Shown in pieces: positions 7,319-61,240 of a DNA stretch of 64,000 nt. A program made the translations under genes and the position numbers. Where the stretch lies: positions 14,666,471 to 14,730,470 of the forward strand of contig OY987247.1 of NCBI GenBank assembly GCA_963920765.1, in the 5' to 3' direction. This DNA is from Ulota crispa. Lineage: Eukaryota; Streptophyta; Bryopsida; Orthotrichales; Orthotrichaceae. Below the pieces are notes generated by a model. It did no database searches, was not told where the DNA came from, and saw only the letters and a list, made by a program, of their open reading frames with translations. How positions within the stretch are numbered: the stretch's first letter is position 1; the number at the start of each line of letters is the position of its first letter.

Positions 7319-7596
7319 AACCTCATATTCATTAAAATGGGAGATTGGGCACCTCCCAAAATAACCAAAGGAGACATAAAACTTTTCAATTTCAAATTAG
7401 TTTTGAAATGGTTTATTGCAATTTAGGTCAAGTCGACCTAAATTGCAATAAAACCTTCTAATTTTAAGTAAAATATGAAAGATTTTATGTCAATTTAGCT
7501 CAAATTGAGTTGAATTGACATAAAACCTCTCATTGACTTTCCTTTACATTACCTCTCATTTCAACGGAAAACTCCCATTTTATTGAATATGAGGTT
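7319..7596. mobile_element. Family B MITE with TTAG duplication
   Basis: 278 bp, from AACCTCATATTCATTAAAAT to TTTATTGAATATGAGGTT, flanked by perfect TTAG (7315-7318 and 7597-7600). The interior holds two small palindromes (TTGCAATTTAGGTCAAGTCG and TGTCAATTTAGCTCAAATTG with their complements). It sits in the copia fossil between RNase H and reverse transcriptase. Confidence 0.85.
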
Positions 7597-21176: not shown

Positions 21177-21409
21177 AACACAATATTGGTTAATTTGGGA
21201 AAAACAAACAATTTTGAGACAAAGTATTTTGGTGATTTAGAGTGAATTTTATGATAATTCCTCCAAGATTTTTCATCATTAATATATAAGATCTTGAGGG
21301 AATTATCATAAAATTCACTCTAAATCATCACAAAACTCTCACAAATGCAAAAATTAAAAGTCCCAAAATCAATATTTCCTTATTTCCCAAATTAATAGGT
21401 ATTGTAATT
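21177..21409. mobile_element. Family A-related fold-back MITE
   Basis: The left end AACACAATATTGGTTAATTT with GGGAAAAAC mirrors the right end TTTCCCAAATTAATAGGTATTG. The core is a strong hairpin: TGATTTAGAGTGAATTTTAT and AAATTCACTCTAAATCATCA. A short duplication could not be confirmed. Confidence 0.6.
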
Positions 21410-23945: not shown

Positions 23946-24987
23946 GAGAGGCGAAGATTTCAAGCTGATTTTCGTCATGTGGTGATGACGATGGTCAATT
24001 TGCATGCTCAGCGTTCGAGATGCTGCTGCGACGCGTCAGGCTAACTAACGGCCTGGCAGGCAGGGCAGGGCAGGGCAGGCAGGCAGGCAGGCCGTCAGTC
24101 GTTTCAAAAATTCTTTGAGCGGCGTCATGATGAATGGTAGTGTGAAGGCCGAGGATGACGACTGGCCTCACTGGCGCTCCCTTCCTCCACTTTCTTGAAA
24201 CTTCTCGTGTGTGTGGCTTCTTTCTCGGGCTGCGTTAGTGCACAAAGTTGTGGTGGTTCACTGGTTTGTGATTGTGCCCTGTGGTTGAGAATTGATTTAC
24301 GAGTTAGAAGATCTTCCTTCTGTGTATGGAGATCTTGTCGAGTAACTCTTTGTACTGAGGTTTTGCTTTACTGCATTTTGAAGTCTCATGAGTAGTGCAG
24401 TTTTTTGCTTTTTTTTAGAGATTGAAGCAATTTTTCTCAATGTTTGAGCACTCATTTTTGGCCTGACACATGAGAGTTGCGTGCTTTTTTATATGTGCTT
24501 CTGAGTGGTGCGTGCGTTGTCACTCCTGCTAGGCTTAGTGATCGCCTGATTCTCATCGAAAACTTTGATTTCTTTAATACTTTCTTTATGATTCAAGGGA
24601 TTCATGCTACGAATTGGAGAAAATATCACGGTACCATGATTCTTTAAATTGACAGCCGTTCAAGTAAGTGTTGTACATGAAGGTAGGCATTCTCGGTGAA
24701 ATTATCGTTGGAGTCTGAACAAATTACAGGTAAAAAGCCTGCCTCCTTTATGTCATGAACTTCGAGATTTTGAATCTCGTTATTATCCTCGTATCCGGGT
24801 AGAAGATTAAATCCTAACCTTTCTGCACAACCACACTCAACCTTAAGAACTCTATGAATTCGTTTTTGAACCACTCAGTTAATTCAAAATCGTGTGTTCG
24901 TGTGCAGATGTGAAGTTTTAGCATCCTCGAAAGGAGTCGAAGTCAGCTGGAGCAACCTTTCTTGTTTTTTGCAACTTCCTCACTCAC

Positions 24988-25070
24988 GCTGGGATCAGAA
25001 GAGAGAGAGTACAGCCCGATAGCCAATTTTTAGTTGGAATGGGCTGTACTCTCTCTCTTCTTGTGCCAGC
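24988..25070 (+). ncRNA. MIR529: MIR529 precursor hairpin 1
   Basis: The 5' arm at 24997-25017 begins AGAAGAGAGAGAG and ends TACAGCCC, the mature miR529 form. miR529 is known to direct cleavage of SPL/SBP transcription factor mRNAs. The 3' arm at 25041-25061 (GGGCTGTACT then CTCTCTCTTCT) is its exact complement over all 21 positions, and pairing extends outward (GCTGG with CCAGC). The loop is only 23 nt. The precursor lies on the + strand 0.2 kb before a second copy. Perfect arm pairing is unusual for an old plant microRNA. Confidence 0.88.
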
Positions 25071-25203
25071 TTGGGTGTTTCACTCTGCAAAGTTCTACCA
25101 GCAAGCTCAATTCAAGCAGCGACTGACGAACCTTACTGCGTGTTTCATAGTGCATCATCTGTCGAAGGACATCAGAAACACAGCTTTTCTACATCCAAGG
25201 CGG

Positions 25204-25294
25204 GACTCGAAGAGAGAGAGCACAGCCCAAGCCACTTTCCTTCACAATATCGTTGATTCGTGGTTGATTGGGCTGTTCTCTCTCTTTTCTAGTC
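25204..25294 (+). ncRNA. MIR529: MIR529 precursor hairpin 2
   Basis: The 5' arm at 25208-25228 begins CGAAGAGAGAGAG and ends CACAGCCC, the common bryophyte-type miR529. The 3' arm near 25269-25290 (GGGCTGTTCTCTCTCTTTTC) pairs with a few mismatches, as in a standard plant precursor. The stem extends through GGACT and AGTCC. The loop is about 35-40 nt. It shares strand and spacing with hairpin 1, so both are probably cut from one transcript. Confidence 0.88.
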
Positions 25295-28200
25295 CTGAGT
25301 GGGATATCTTCTATTTGTGGTTGACGACCGAAGAAGATCGATTTGTACAATTTTCGGCTCTGTTCATTCATTGCTTTCTTGACTAGTAGCGAGACCACAA
25401 GTATTTCTGCACCTAAAGACGTACCTCATCAATGAAGGAGCCTCGCATTTGTTCACTCTGTAGCGAATATATGATCAGTTGGTCACTTTCGTTGTGATTA
25501 AGGTAACGAACGAATAAGGTCTATGGTTGAATGCCTTTTGGACTTCTTTTCGTCATTCTAATGTTCTATTTTCTAGGATAATTGTTCCTTCCTGTCAACC
25601 TTACTCTAGCCACAGCATCTACAGGGCCGACAGGGCCTTGAGGCGCATTATTGTGGAGTGACGCTTTCACTGCATTTTGGAGGATCAATGCTGCGTGGCT
25701 CAACTACTCTAAACTGACTACGCTAATCGTTCAAGCTCAACGGTACTTCCCGAGAGCATGTGGAAACATGTACAGCATGTCAAGTTTGTCAAAGACTGTT
25801 TGACAATTTGAGTCGCGCAGCGAAACATTAGTTGCTAGAGTTTAATTAAAGTAGACTTCTCTATAGGTTGCAGCGGTTGCTTGGTTCTAAAGCCAATGCT
25901 CCTTTGCAATATCTTCAATTGAAGGTATTACTTGATGATATTGCAACCAGTTTTTAGTGAAGCCATGTGCAAGTAGATCGACTTTCATTCAGACTAGTTG
26001 ACAGTCGTTGCAGTGCTCAAGGTTAAGTAGAGTCGTTCTCATCAAGGCCAGTGGCAAAATAATTTTGTACTTTTTTTTAGCAAAGCAACATGCGCAATAC
26101 GAGGAGCATTGGAGCAACTTTGCATTTTTATTTGTGGATAAAAGCATGGGTCGTCGATGTAGTTCAGAGCTTGGCCACAAATTTTTCTGATGATTGGCGT
26201 TTTTTGCTTTCTGGAAAACTAGTTGTTTAAGTACACCTCTTTGCTTATATCGCCTTAAGTTATTGGTTACTGCTCTATCTAGCTACTGCTGTCGCTGACA
26301 AGTGACTGCACGAGCTGTGATGAGATTCATTTGTTAGAACAAGAAACCAGATAACTTAAAATCGAAGCCCACTGCTGTGTTACACATGAAGTTCAAGTTA
26401 CTGTAAGTTGGATTTATGAACGGGTTTTAATAATTTGCCTCTAAGTTAAAGTTATGAGCTGATCTTAGCAATTTTCAGCAAACATATGTTTAGCTTTAAC
26501 GTAACTGACTGTTTAGTTCCGCAACTAGTTATTTCTTCAACTTGGCGGTGGCAAAATATCTAAAGGTACGGATCATTGTTTTTGAGCTCTAATTAACTGC
26601 AGGAATTGAAGTTTCTGCGTTAAGAGATCATGTCTCTGGATTGTGCATGAAAAATCAATCTCTTTGACAGTCATGCCACATTGATAATGTATTCAACTAT
26701 TCATGTCTGTTTACCATGTGCAGAAATGAAGCTGAACCTCTTCTCGTAAAGAAGTTGCAACACATTGCGTACTACAGCATTGAGTCCTGAGGGAATCACA
26801 TTATCAGACGTGCGCATTAACGTTGGCTTGTGATTCGTCTTAGGATGACTTCAACCGCAAACTGTTGTTCGGACACACCTGGCTAAAAGGGATGGTGTTA
26901 TTTTGAATGTTTTTAGGGGCTGTGCTGTTGTTTCAGCTCAAGATTTTTCGTGCAGACCTCATTTTACACAGGTAGTTGACGTTTTGGTGGGGTGGATTTG
27001 AAATTAATATGCATGCTTATTTTCTGGTAATGAGTTACGCTCGACCCTCTCTATCGACACTGCCTGGGGGACAAAATGGGCTTTCATGCAGTCAAATATG
27101 TTCACAACCTGGCATGTGGAAGACGTTTACAAAAAATGTCAGATGCACAAGATTTACATGGAACGTGCATTTGCAGAGTGTTCCATTGAGGATGGTTGAG
27201 TTGTGTCACACCGATTTCTTGTTATTGTTTTCTCGTGTTTAGTTTCTGGTTGAAGCAGCTAGGTGCCGGTTTGCAACCGCTGTTCTCAGTATATAATACT
27301 CGTTCCCATAGTGATTGCAGTACGTGGTTGTCAGTAGTTAGAGCTGTACTGGTAGAAAGATGGGATACTGTCATAAGTTACAATGACACCTCAGAAAATG
27401 ACATCAAAGTAATAGGAGACATTGTGCTGTTCATTTGAGTTACAAGTCTCACTGAGTCATTAGTGATTGAGTATTATTCTTGGGGTGTCATTACGTCCCA
27501 CATTTCTAGAGCAGCAGTGCTAGAATGGGATTCTTGACAACTGGTCCAATCAAAGGCCTATAAGTCCGGCCTAATACTTGTAGTAATACCAGCATGATTT
27601 TTTTGAGTGGGGTACAACTGTACATTACTTCAGTGTACTTCTGAATGATTTGGAGGGTGTGTTTGCAGGTTATGGAAATCCATGAACTTTGGGAGTTACC
27701 CGTGGATTCCGTGCCCGTATCTGCGTGGAGTCGTGGACGCGTCCATTTCTTGTGCTAGTTGACAGAGCACCCTCTGCTGCTGAGATTACACATGCAGAAA
27801 CTTATGTTTCTTCTAAACGAAACGTGAAAGAGGTGTGACATTGCCGTACGATGTTGTGGCATGATCAAACCGGATTCACAGCCAGCTCACATTGAGTCCC
27901 GGGCGTGAAAAGCGTACACAAGTAGTACATGGTCCTACACTAGATAAGGACCTCGTAACCACTTTGTACCATTCACACACTGAGGATTAGATACAAACTA
28001 GCTGTGATCGAGTCATTCGTCTTGAGAATTGAAGATCCAAGCTCAGGTATCTAATACAACCTTGTTCACAACTTGGACTTCTAGTTGGCTGTATTCAATT
28101 GAATCTAAGAATATGATTTTACAATTCAGCAAGTCGCCATTTTCGTCTTCTATTATAGATGCAACGGCATGATGTCCTGCTGATTACAACGTCAATTCGG

Positions 28201-45054: not shown

Positions 45055-46639
45055 CAGTGACGAACAAAACTGAGTATTCCAATATTCATATAGAGAGCTT
45101 AAGTTTAACTAGACTTATGTGGCACTTGATAACATGAATTGTTAAAGTGAATGATAGAAGTGTGAAAACAACTTGTTCCACTCATATGTGTGAAAACAAA
45201 GGTGGAAAAGTGATAAAGTGTTTTAGAACCAAGTGTTTGAACCACTTAGGGTTTTAGTACTCGGTAATGTTTGAAGTTGCACTTCAAAATTAGTTTTCGT
45301 GAGTGTTTGCCCTTGTTTTGGAGAGGTTGTTGGTGTGTTGCGATTTTACGTCTGTGGACTTTGTGAGGATTGTGAGGGTTTTCTATTGTTTGAGTATGGC
45401 TCTTGTAATTGAGATGAAGAGAAACATTGCTTTGTCTCAACTTTGGAGCGGTCTGTTGACACGGAAAGTAGTTGTTTCAGTTGGTATGAGTCAATCGTGG
45501 GTGGCTCAATTGCAAAAGGAGATTGCGGGAGAGGTGGAGAAATAAAAAGGAGGGTGTCCAAAGCATCTTAATGCAAGAGAGAGGCGACGTTTTGCAACCC
45601 TCCTCACTAAAGGTTGTCTAGGAATTGCGTCAAAGACAGCAAAACAATTTTGAAACAAGGCATGTAAAATTTTGTCTGACATTACCGTGAGGCGCGCTTT
45701 GAGAGGTGAAAGTTTGGTTGCACAAGTGCAACAAAAGAAATCCTTTTTGGCATGGAGACACGTTTTGGCACATTTGAGGTTTACTCAAAGGTATGTAAAC
45801 TAGACAATTCATGATTGGAAACATGTTTTCTTTAGTAATGAGACAAAGATAAATAGGTTCAATTGAGATGGTAGGTCATCGTGTTGGATTAGAGATGGAG
45901 AATGTGTTCAATCGCAGCATGTTTGTGAAACAGTGAAACATGGTGGCGGGCATGTCATGATTTGGGGTTGTATGACAGCATTTGGACCTGGAGCTTGGTA
46001 TAGGATTGAAGGTATTATGGATCAGCATAAGTACAGATTTATTTTATAAAACTTGTGTGGTCTACAATTCGGCATTACAGTATGGATCCAAACAACTTAG
46101 TATTTCAGCAGGATAATGATCCAAAACACACAAGCAAGTTGGTGCATGGATGGCTTAAATCGCAACCATTTGAGCTTCTCCAATGGCATGCTCAATCTCC
46201 AAACTTGAATCCCATAGAGCATTTTTGGGCTCTTTTGAAACAGCAATTGAATGAGCTTTCTATGCCTCCAAGAGGAATTGAAGAATTGTGGGAGCGTGTG
46301 TGTACAATTTTCTCAAATTTTAGTCAAGAGGATTGCTTGGCATTGTATGAAAGCATGCCACAAAGAGTTGCTGCTGTATTGGCTGCTAAAGGCTATCGGA
46401 CAGATTATTGAAGTTCAAGAAGTAAGTTGAACAATATTGAGTACTTGTATATAGTTGTAGATTTTAGATTGTAAGAAATTATATAGTTTTTAATTTGATT
46501 TTATGGTTTTGCATACATGTTCACAACTCTATTTGCTTATGAATACAATTTATAGCTTTAAAAAATGTTATGTAGATTGTTTGTAATTGTATTTTGAAGT
46601 TCACTTCTCAAAAATAGTACTCAATTTTGTTTGTCACTA
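45055..46639 (+). mobile_element. Tc1-type DNA transposon, complete ends, dead
   Basis: 1585 bp between TA dinucleotides (45053-45054 and 46640-46641). Terminal repeats CAGTGACGAACAAAACTGAG and, reversed, TAGTGACAAACAAAATTGAG. It encloses a degraded DD34E transposase in + orientation. Length and ends are those of a full Tc1 element. Confidence 0.88.
45393..46411 (+). pseudogene. Tc1 (DD34E) transposase, broken
   Basis: The N-terminal helix-turn-helix part is readable (WSGLLTRKVVVSVGMSQSWV..LQKEIAGEV). The DDE part gives FFSNETKINRF, KHGGGHVMIWGCMTAFGPGA, then QQDNDPKHTS and LNPIEHFW. Exactly 34 residues separate the D of QQDN from the E of PIEHF, which makes it DD34E, and it ends PQRVAAVLAAKGYRTDY. 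The first catalytic aspartate (usual 'SDE') is asparagine here. Reading from 45393, at least five stops occur before about 46050, then the frame shifts to the clean last part (46055-46411). It is non-functional. Confidence 0.88.
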
Positions 46640-50500: not shown

Positions 50501-52670
50501 CCAATTCATGGAATTATCACCACTTGGTTACCGACTGCCTGCAACACAAACAAAGACGCCACATGGGACACTCAAACACAACAACCAACCAACCAACCAA
50601 CCAAACAAACTGCAACAATGTCATAGTGAGGAAATATTTGTCCAACTTGGCAAGGCAAGGAGGGTAGAACAATACCTGATCCAATGCAAAAGACACTGAG
50701 GAGACGGCCGGTGGAAGCCAAGACTCGTCGCATGTCAGCTGCAAAGAGCAGAAGTGGAACTGCTAAGGGGAGAAGAAATCTGTTCACAATGGTATACGTC
50801 GGTGAATCTGCTGCAATGACGCCCAGATTGCTTGCTGCCAACCCCACCAATGTACTTACCAGTGCCCCACTGAGCGCACTTCCCCATTGCGTCTTTTCTG
50901 ACCTTCACATCCACCACAAATACCGTACATTACCATCGGTTCTGGACATAATTATTCCTTCCAGATGCCACGTCGAATTAAATGACACTCCCAGCCATTC
51001 ACTGATAGGCACGTAGAGGTAACATACAGAGAATGGCAAGGCAGTGAGTGACTCACACCTGCTACACCATTTACAAAACTTCGACTTTTCAAAGCTCAAG
51101 GACACATAAGCTTTCAGAGTATACAGAAAGTTCACCAAATCAGCACTTGGTCATAGGACTCATAAAAATGTTTGAATTAAATCTAGTTGTTTTCCAGGTG
51201 CTACGGGGGGTATACAGTGTTGAAACCTCGGACAAATTTTACCTCTTTAGACATGCTTAAACCTTCCAGTTCCCAGAATGGATATGGAGGGCTCTTTACA
51301 CACAATTTGCTTAAGGTAAGTAGCTCAAATTGCGTCCCCTCTCAAATAAAGGGGCCCATAGGTAGCTCAGGAATGGATATGAGGTGGTTATTGAATGGAC
51401 CCTCCTTAGTCATAAAAGAAAAGATATATTCTATTGCAAGAGCAATCACATTCCTTGATTTTCACCTCATCTCTTTATAAGTTGCAAGAGAACTGTTTAT
51501 GGGAGACTTACAATCACAAACAGGTGCCTACTATATAAACTTCGAAAATTCATCAACAACTCAATAATGCTTCAAAAAATATGCAAAAAATTGTGTTACA
51601 TTTGATATCCATTTTTCTTTCTCTGAAAATCAGACAAAAAAATTCTTTGTCTAAAATGCCCATGAAAAAGGCAGATCAGCTCTTAAAAGTGTCGCTTTTT
51701 GAACTACCTACCTTATTTCTTGTCAGGGAATGGAGATGCCTCCATAAGCACGAACAAGGACTATGCACTCACTTTCTTTCACAAAATGGTTGAGATTTAG
51801 TTAACCCACGTTCATACACCCTTTTCTCACCGATAAAACACAAACTTCAATAAACACACATTTCTGGCCATATAAACGGATAAATGCACGCGGGGCGAGG
51901 ATTAGGGTTACACATCTGGTTCATGAACGTTCAAATCGTAGCGCCATTGAGGATGAGTCACGCAGGCACCAAGAGGATCGGGCCTTCGTGATCTTGCAGG
52001 CTGTGATTTGAATGTAAAAAAAAAGGAAAATTTCATGGATACCCCTGAAGTTAGTTTGCAGTAATTTCATAGATATACCCTTGCTTTTTCAGAAATATCA
52101 CAAAAAATTTAGGCATTTGTTTTGTTGTGCATGTCACTTCCTTCTCCCTTTGTGCACACACTACTTTTTGTATGTTTGTGCACATAGGGAGAAGGAAGTG
52201 ACATGCACAACAAAACAAATGCCTAAATCTTTTGTGATATTTCTGAAAAAGCAAGGGTATCTATGAAATTACTGCAAACAAACTTCAGGGGTATCCATGA
52301 AATTTTCCCAGAAAACAAACCTTGAAGAAGAAACTCACCAGAGTCCGAAAGCGCCAGCAGCAAGCAGCACAGTCCAAGTGCCCCACGTATCAGTGGCAGC
52401 TATCAGCGGAGTGGTCAAGGCGGCACAGATCTCGCTCTTCTTCGTCTTCTTCTTCGTCTTCACTTCCGTCTCCCTCCTCCGGTACCCCGAGAGTGGGCTT
52501 CCACGTCTCCAGGAATCGCCAAGCCAAGGAGAACCCAGCTGCAGAGAAGGCGCAACTCGTGGATTCGCTATTGCTAAAGAATGTGGGGTGGCATTTCGAG
52601 GCATGGCATTGCAACGAGGAACATGGTTGTGGAGAGGCTTCCGATGGAAGAGCGATGCCGTAGCAGACAT
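47507..52670 (-). CDS. DUF819 family integral membrane protein, probably plastid-targeted
   Basis: Six exons, complement of 52339-52670, 50676-50902, 50387-50497, 49348-49500, 48770-49008, 47507-47830. All introns are GT-AG and phases join to 461 codons plus TGA. The start (CACC ATG TCT at 52670) gives an N-terminus rich in Arg, Ser and Ala and poor in acids, like a transit peptide. The membrane domain starts at about residue 88 (PLIAATDTWGTWTVLLAAGA). Family text follows: SEKTQWGSALSGALVSTLVG, LPLAVPLLLFAADMRR, AALMSRHIGGAVNYVAVTEA, and the C-terminal SNANVGGPTTAGGMA. DUF819 proteins are multi-pass membrane proteins of bacteria and plants; their transport role is unproven. Intron 1 holds a family F MITE, intron 5 a tandem repeat. 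The gene looks intact. Confidence 0.92.
48075..48191. repeat. Tandem repeat in DUF819 intron 5
   Basis: CTCACGGTATRACATTCCCC occurs four times (starting near 48090, 48121, 48147 and 48173) with spacings of 31, 26 and 26 bp. The longer first unit includes GATCCCTG. Confidence 0.85.
52025..52309. mobile_element. Family F MITE in DUF819 intron 1
   Basis: 285-bp near-perfect hairpin from GGAAAATTTCATGGATACCC to the reversed equivalent ending ATGAAATTTTCCC. The inner arms CACTTCCTTCTCCCTTTGTG and CATAGGGAGAAGGAAGTGAC pair around a short loop. It lies 30 bp inside the 5' splice site of intron 1. The 9-bp duplication is not clear in the A-rich flank. Confidence 0.82.
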
Positions 52671-60283: not shown

Positions 60284-61240
60284 TCAGGCTCTCCTCATAA
60301 CTCTATCCAGTGCTGGAGGGTCGGCGTTGAAGCGCCGGCAACAGCGCTCCACCCATATGAACCAGATTAAGTGGCAGCGAAGCATGTCCCAAGGATGGTG
60401 ACTAAAAATGAACTGCAGCTCCTTCGCTCCTCTAATGGGAACTTGAAATCTCTCGAGGATTGCCTTCTCCCATGTCGCATAGCTTGGGCCCTTGTGCAGG
60501 AGCGCCACATGGTGGTATCGCCGCCATATCTTTGTTGCAAAGGTGCATCTCCAGAATAGGTGTCCATAAGTCTCTTCCTGTTTGTCCTTGCACAAATCAC
60601 ACTTAGGGGCACTGTGCATACCAATTTGTGAAAGCCAAGCCCCAGTAGCCACACCTCTGTTGACAAAGGACCATAGAAATGTCGCTATCTTGCGAGGACG
60701 AGATTGGTGCCAGAGGAAGCTGTGAAATTTCTTCTGGTCTTGTTGGTTGTGGCCATTATCTTGGAGGATTTGGGTAACTTTGGAGGAGTGTTGTGTGTGT
60801 AATAAGCCTATCTTGTACCCCCTCTTTACAGTATACTCAAAGAAGGGAAGATGTTTGTGGGAGGGGATTTCACTCCAGTTCTAGTCGCCTGGATCCCAAG
60901 GAAGGTCAGGCATGAAACTGGGGCCTATTGTATGGGCTTTGGTGCGCGGCAGGGTCTTTGGGTTGATTCCGGCAAGCTTTTACTTTGTGGGGACCACACC
61001 GTAACCCTAACCGGTAGGTAGCGTTGTCCTAGTGGCATACTGTAGTATCCCTCTTCTTGTGTGAGGAGTCCTGAATCTGCTTGGAGCATGAATCGCACTG
61101 CGGTGAACGATTGGTTATCTCTGTTTATCTGAGTGATAAAGCATATGTGGCGCAACACCTGTCCGTTATCTTCCCCGACCCATGCGTCCTCGAGCAGCGC
61201 GTACGTCATTCTTGGCTCCCAAGGTATGATTGGGAGCACT
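60284..61240 (-). pseudogene. LINE ORF2 C-terminus with zf-RVT zinc-binding domain
   Basis: This is the tail of a LINE reverse transcriptase polyprotein. The clear part (60738-60284) reads FHSFLWHQSRPRKIATFLWS then FVNRGVATGAWLSQIG, followed by CDLCKDKQEETYGHLFWRC, the Cys/His pattern of the zf-RVT domain, and WDMLRCHLIWFIWVERCCRR. Upstream (61239-60925, - strand) a separate frame holds the preceding linker. Between them are one in-frame stop (near 60887) and a frame change. The polymerase domain itself is absent, consistent with 5' truncation. Confidence 0.8.

Follow-up and report, generated by a model that had tools for sequence, protein, structure and literature searches.

The window, a stretch of 64,000 nucleotides of Ulota crispa DNA located on contig C6, most probably (at roughly 0.93) carries a moss MIR529 gene with two hairpins, which has a duplicate on contig C5 and whose miR529 would act on SPL transcripts. 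MIR529 belongs to the known microRNA families that adjust the timing of development in plants. The features of the gene are listed below:

24981–25077, plus strand: MIR529 hairpin 1 precursor with lower stem (inverted repeat, fold, Rfam MIR529, C5 paralogue)
24997–25017, plus strand: predicted mature miR529, form AGAAGAGAGAGAGUACAGCCC (pattern match, 0 mismatches; letters of ppt-miR529e, excerpt of PMC12027079)
25018–25040, plus strand: hairpin 1 inter-arm segment, folded around a 6-bp stem (fold, direct check)
25041–25061, plus strand: hairpin 1 opposite (star) arm (exact reverse complement of the mature arm)
25193–25305, plus strand: MIR529 hairpin 2 precursor with lower stem (inverted repeat, z −7.9, Rfam MIR529)
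25208–25228, plus strand: predicted mature miR529, form CGAAGAGAGAGAGCACAGCCC (pattern match, 0 mismatches; same letters in the C5 cluster)
25270–25290, plus strand: hairpin 2 opposite (star) arm (minus-strand pattern match with 2 mismatches)

Scanning of the window with the miR529 pattern gave an exact match (AGAAGAGAGAGAGTACAGCCC) at 24997–25017 and a second one at 25208–25228, both on the plus strand, which bore out what the first-pass annotation had read from the letters, namely MIR529 identity, a tandem on one strand with starts of the mature arms 211 nt apart, and two different mature forms. At up to 3 mismatches, the pattern was matched 4 times in the window, with a mean of 0 and a largest value of 0 over 100 dinucleotide shuffles. 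The precursors are separated by approximately 115 nt, the inter-arm segments measure 23 nt (hairpin 1) and 41 nt (hairpin 2), and in both stable hairpins the mature form occupies the 5′ arm, with few mismatches in its duplex. Inverted-repeat comparison gave 86% complementarity for the arms of hairpin 1 (24981–25017/25041–25077) and 79% for those of hairpin 2 (25193–25235/25263–25305). RNA folding, which had been proposed beforehand as a check, placed both hairpins far below their shuffles, at −67.4 kcal/mol (z −11.30) for hairpin 1 and −55.6 kcal/mol (z −7.88) for hairpin 2, with 0 of 200 shuffles equally stable in either case.

The fully paired duplex ascribed earlier to hairpin 1 was checked directly and stood, all 21 of 21 positions of the mature and opposite arms being complementary. 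After 22 consecutive pairs, the fold passes through a 4/2 internal loop into a 6-bp stem closed by a 3-nt loop; the lower stem beneath is paired with mismatches. The '23-nt loop' of the annotation was hence right in length, as 23 nt do lie between the arms, and wrong as an open loop, since this segment is mostly paired. With a 2-nt overhang, the star of hairpin 1 would correspond to 25043–25063. In each of the four hairpins of the two clusters, the 5′ arm begins at the duplex end with the weaker predicted energy. The common rule of thumb would then favor this arm as guide, which argues against the suggested stable product from the opposite arm of hairpin 1.

The Rfam scan of the window yielded no family that reached its gathering score, and the matches to both hairpins were obtained with an E-value threshold, below that score. 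Hairpin 1 was best matched by RF00908 (MIR529; gathering score 75), at 56.9 bits (E 1.3e-12). The same family ranked first by E-value for hairpin 2 (33.0 bits, E 1.5e-5); the MIR156 model scored hairpin 2 at nearly the same bits (33.3 bits, E 9.1e-5). The sub-gathering scores and this near-tie count against the preferred reading. A 154-codon open stretch that runs over both hairpins (24922–25386) was dismissed as a gene, as its bounds are two stop codons and the hairpins account for its similarity to C5. Elsewhere in the window, other perfect short inverted repeats were noted at 2475–2570, 7412–7452, 21233–21327 and 52120–52215; the arm at 52120 recurs in locus L040 and probably belongs to a small transposable element. 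Transposon remains were recognized as a DDE_3 endonuclease domain (46031–46411, plus strand) and a zf-RVT (reverse-transcriptase zinc-binding) domain (60284–60880, minus strand).

The genome (274.8 Mb, 157 contigs) was searched at the DNA level and with the 21-nt miR529 pattern; one other related locus was found by the DNA search (C5:2729886–2730160, minus strand), in a count that more distant MIR529 genes could escape by both routes. The pattern at up to 2 mismatches was matched at 11 genome places (4 mature arms, 3 opposite arms, 1 SPL site and 3 others), against 0 for the reversed pattern. The C5 cluster holds AGAAGAGAGAGAGCACAGCCC and then CGAAGAGAGAGAGCACAGCCC, 230 apart, in the same order from A-form to C-form as in the window, with the C-first form identical in both clusters. 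Upon alignment of C6 with C5, 95 of the 106 columns across hairpin 1 and its loop were identical (90%, 24973–25078), as were 35 of 42 columns in the 5′ part of hairpin 2 and 29 of 36 in its 3′ part. Identity in the 5 other segments compared, comprising flanks, spacer and the loop of hairpin 2, amounted to 30–43%, which was taken for the chance level of a gapped alignment. As judged by these alignments, conservation of the cluster is confined to the hairpins, and the genome has two related clusters. The difference between A-first and C-first forms is common to both, and it therefore most simply predates their duplication. A shared neighborhood of the two clusters was considered and rejected: comparison of the 28-kb surroundings on C5 with the window by translated open stretches gave 16 rows, of which 2 were the hairpins themselves and the other 14 overlapped DNA-level matches, many of them recurring in the window and repeat-like.

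Decay of one hairpin or both into an unexpressed copy is very unlikely. The loop of hairpin 2, with 14 of 47 columns identical between C6 and C5, would fit such decay; against it, all four hairpins of the two clusters have kept intact mature arms, and the stems are conserved far above the flanks. The C5 copy of hairpin 2 folds weakly (MFEI 0.65), a point against the preferred reading. At position 14 of hairpin 1, a U14–A pair in C6 corresponds to C14–G in C5, so that the pair is kept with both sides changed; RNAalifold on the 4 hairpins returned 25 consensus pairs, 2 of them with changes on both sides, and a covariation term of 0, on account of which covariation is regarded as suggestive only.

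The 21/21 pairing could also mean that hairpin 1 is a near-perfect inverted repeat, i.e. an siRNA-type hairpin or a product of transcription from both strands rather than a normal MIR gene, and the Rfam MIR529 model scores its minus strand (54.9 bits) almost as high as its plus strand. The mismatches in the lower stem speak against a fresh inverted duplication, the C5 counterpart has an A–C mismatch in addition to the compensated pair, and a home-made model, although built from these hairpins, prefers the plus strand (114 vs. 74.6 bits); this origin is considered extremely unlikely. Since the arms of hairpin 1 are exact reverse complements, its mature read will map to both strands whatever the transcript, which makes reads on both strands, given in the first-pass annotation as a refutation, a misleading one.

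Of other microRNAs in the genome, miR156 had 6 places when up to 2 mismatches were allowed. Its 2 exact places fold as hairpins, and a MIR156 hairpin at locus L018 is one bulged base short of full pairing. This near-full pairing, the better-conserved precursor and the paired lower stem all argue, from sequence and fold, against the proposal that hairpin 1 would be a poor or unusual Dicer-like substrate. For miR390, 2 exact copies were found among 3 genome places with up to 2 mismatches, which were read as MIR390, and no TAS3 was recognized among these 3 places. Exact genome copies numbered 4 for miR536 and 5 for miR535, the query letters being those printed for Physcomitrella (excerpt of PMC1838911). 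Along with the MIR529 tandem, these microRNAs indicate that the genome is probably that of a moss. An exact mature sequence together with a near-match on the opposite strand likely marks a MIR390 hairpin at C3:15475720–15475804 (43 nt between) and a MIR535 hairpin at C10:6386616–6386694 (37 nt between).

For the target side, at least 12 genome matches to the Pfam SBP domain were grouped into 7 SPL loci, and miR156/529 sites were sought in 9.5–9.9 kb around each. The motif GRALSLLS is the usual coding motif of miR156/529 sites in SPL genes, and it is read in one frame of the good site that was found in 1 of the 7 loci (C3:3979502–3979522). This match is in line with the earlier proposal that miR529 targets SPL and, on complementarity, makes the locus a predicted target. 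Penalties at the site were 2.5 (A..U14), 2.0 (A..C14), 3.0 (C..C14) and 1.0 (miR156), with predicted duplex energies of −34.3, −36.3, −35.4 and −33.9 kcal/mol, respectively; U14 of miR529 stands against G as a wobble. Position 1 of a miRNA carries little weight in targeting. The SPL loci on C4 and C9 gave weak miR156-like matches upstream of the SBP exon (penalty 3.5 and 5.5), and 4 of the 7 loci had no miR156/529 site at a penalty of up to 5.5 within the 9.5–9.9 kb around each. The two loci resemble each other in a weak miR156-like site, GTGTTCTCTCTCC[TC]CTGTCA, at L044 3037–3056 (C4) and L045 2625–2644 (C9), which precedes the SBP exon by approximately 1.3 and 1.7 kb, respectively. Two wobble-tolerant miR156/miR529 target patterns were dropped, as the reversed controls came close to them in number of matches (39 + 45 against 46 + 46, and 162 + 151 against 209 + 200). 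On C8, two SPL genes of equal score and frame length (11143124–11143345 and 11218206–11218427) point in opposite directions at a distance of 75 kb, perhaps as a recent inverted duplication.

Beyond SPL, a 25-nt combined miR156/miR529-like site was located at C3:19932067–19932091 (minus strand; L039 3068–3092), with 21 of 25 letters equal to the SPL site, including the last 19. An AG resembling a splice acceptor directly precedes this candidate site, and 54 nt separate its end from an ATG that has an in-frame stop upstream. Pfam Myb domains were matched both by the frame that follows and by a further open stretch downstream, the two being read as putative exons of one R2R3-MYB gene. MYB genes have been reported as miR529 targets in Marchantia and not in maize or rice (excerpt of PMC8541648). 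A further candidate site at C3:21094675–21094695 (minus strand; L040 3076–3096) shows 20 consecutive pairs with the C form. From its end to a candidate ATG there are 186 nt, with 2 other ATGs between; the two open stretches of the following gene had no Pfam match. Both leaders, that of the MYB gene and that at C3:21094675, are assumed to be transcribed. A weaker candidate site was found at C8:18608899 (penalty 3.0–4.0). In mosses, TAS6 lies beside TAS3 and has been reported as a miR156/miR529 target (excerpts of PMC5907777 and PMC3565333). A miR390 site at a penalty of up to 7 was present in none of the 4 loci examined (L038–L041).

These sites bear on whether a real MIR529 cluster might supply forms with divided work, either through ARGONAUTE loading by 5′ A versus 5′ C or through different targets. 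The candidate leader site at C3:21094675 favors the C form (−39.8 kcal/mol vs. −35.7 for A..U14), and the A-first/C-first difference is the same in the C6 and C5 clusters. At the SPL site, however, the two forms of the window are only 1.1 kcal/mol apart, so that the division of targets suggested in the first-pass annotation finds no support there. Moreover, the P. patens list, as excerpted from PMC3565333, has AGO1 (three) and AGO4/6/9 types and no AGO2, 3, 5, 7, 8 or 10 homologue, which leaves the angiosperm sorting rule without obvious partners in moss. Divided work is therefore rated unlikely. A fuller version is likewise unlikely, in which the two forms, distinct since before the cluster duplication, would have separate jobs, with a common SPL site and extra targets through sites in the presumed 5′ leaders of the MYB gene and a gene of unknown function; these targets would make up a branch of the miR156/529 network in mosses.

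The preferred reading, a two-hairpin MIR529 gene with a C5 duplicate, agrees with known systems. Seven MIR529 genes with three tandem pairs have been described in moss, and hairpins adjoin in the Physcomitrium (Physcomitrella) patens pairs as in the window, although the pair members there are less than 100 nt apart ('data not shown'; excerpt of PMC4409300); in P. patens, 25% of miRNAs are given as polycistronic (excerpt of PMC9291395). The form AGAAGAGAGAGAGUACAGCCC is that of ppt-miR529e letter for letter, CGAAGAGAGAGAGCACAGCCC equals rice miR529a (excerpt of PMC4898717), and AGAAGAGAGAGAGCACAGCCC has been sequenced in a fern, with ppt-miR529d as the nearest miRBase entry (excerpt of PMC5426797). 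Mature sequence, 5p position and stem are shared with rice miR529 and the RF00908 family, whereas the inter-arm segments of the window are shorter than those of the model, with Rfam scores below gathering, and the rice MIR529 genes form a segmental and not a tandem pair (excerpt of PMC4409300). The composite SPL site of the miR156/miR529–SPL module is present here too, but a good one was seen at a single locus among the 7 SPL loci found, within the 9.5–9.9 kb searched around each. Published work thus already contains both mature forms of the window and tandem pairs of MIR529 genes; no publication on this MIR529 locus was found in the literature searched, outside of which most subscription papers fall.

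From spacing and strand, both hairpins would be carried by a single RNA polymerase II transcript of the plus strand. By homology, a Dicer-like-1 enzyme would cut each into a 21-nt duplex, the 5′ arms of which would yield the two miR529 forms. Loaded into ARGONAUTE, these are predicted to slice SPL mRNA at the GRALSLLS site, together with miR156, and the C5 cluster, as a duplicate, would give almost identical products. The finding of a tandem MIR529 is in itself ordinary. In a 2023 review, what miR529 does in moss sporophytes was still given as unknown (excerpt of PMC10721683), and a species with two duplicated clusters offers a new case for why mosses keep miR529 beside miR156: with 4 hairpins in 2 clusters and 1 clear SPL target, the question of miR529 would be open to test by removal of both clusters.
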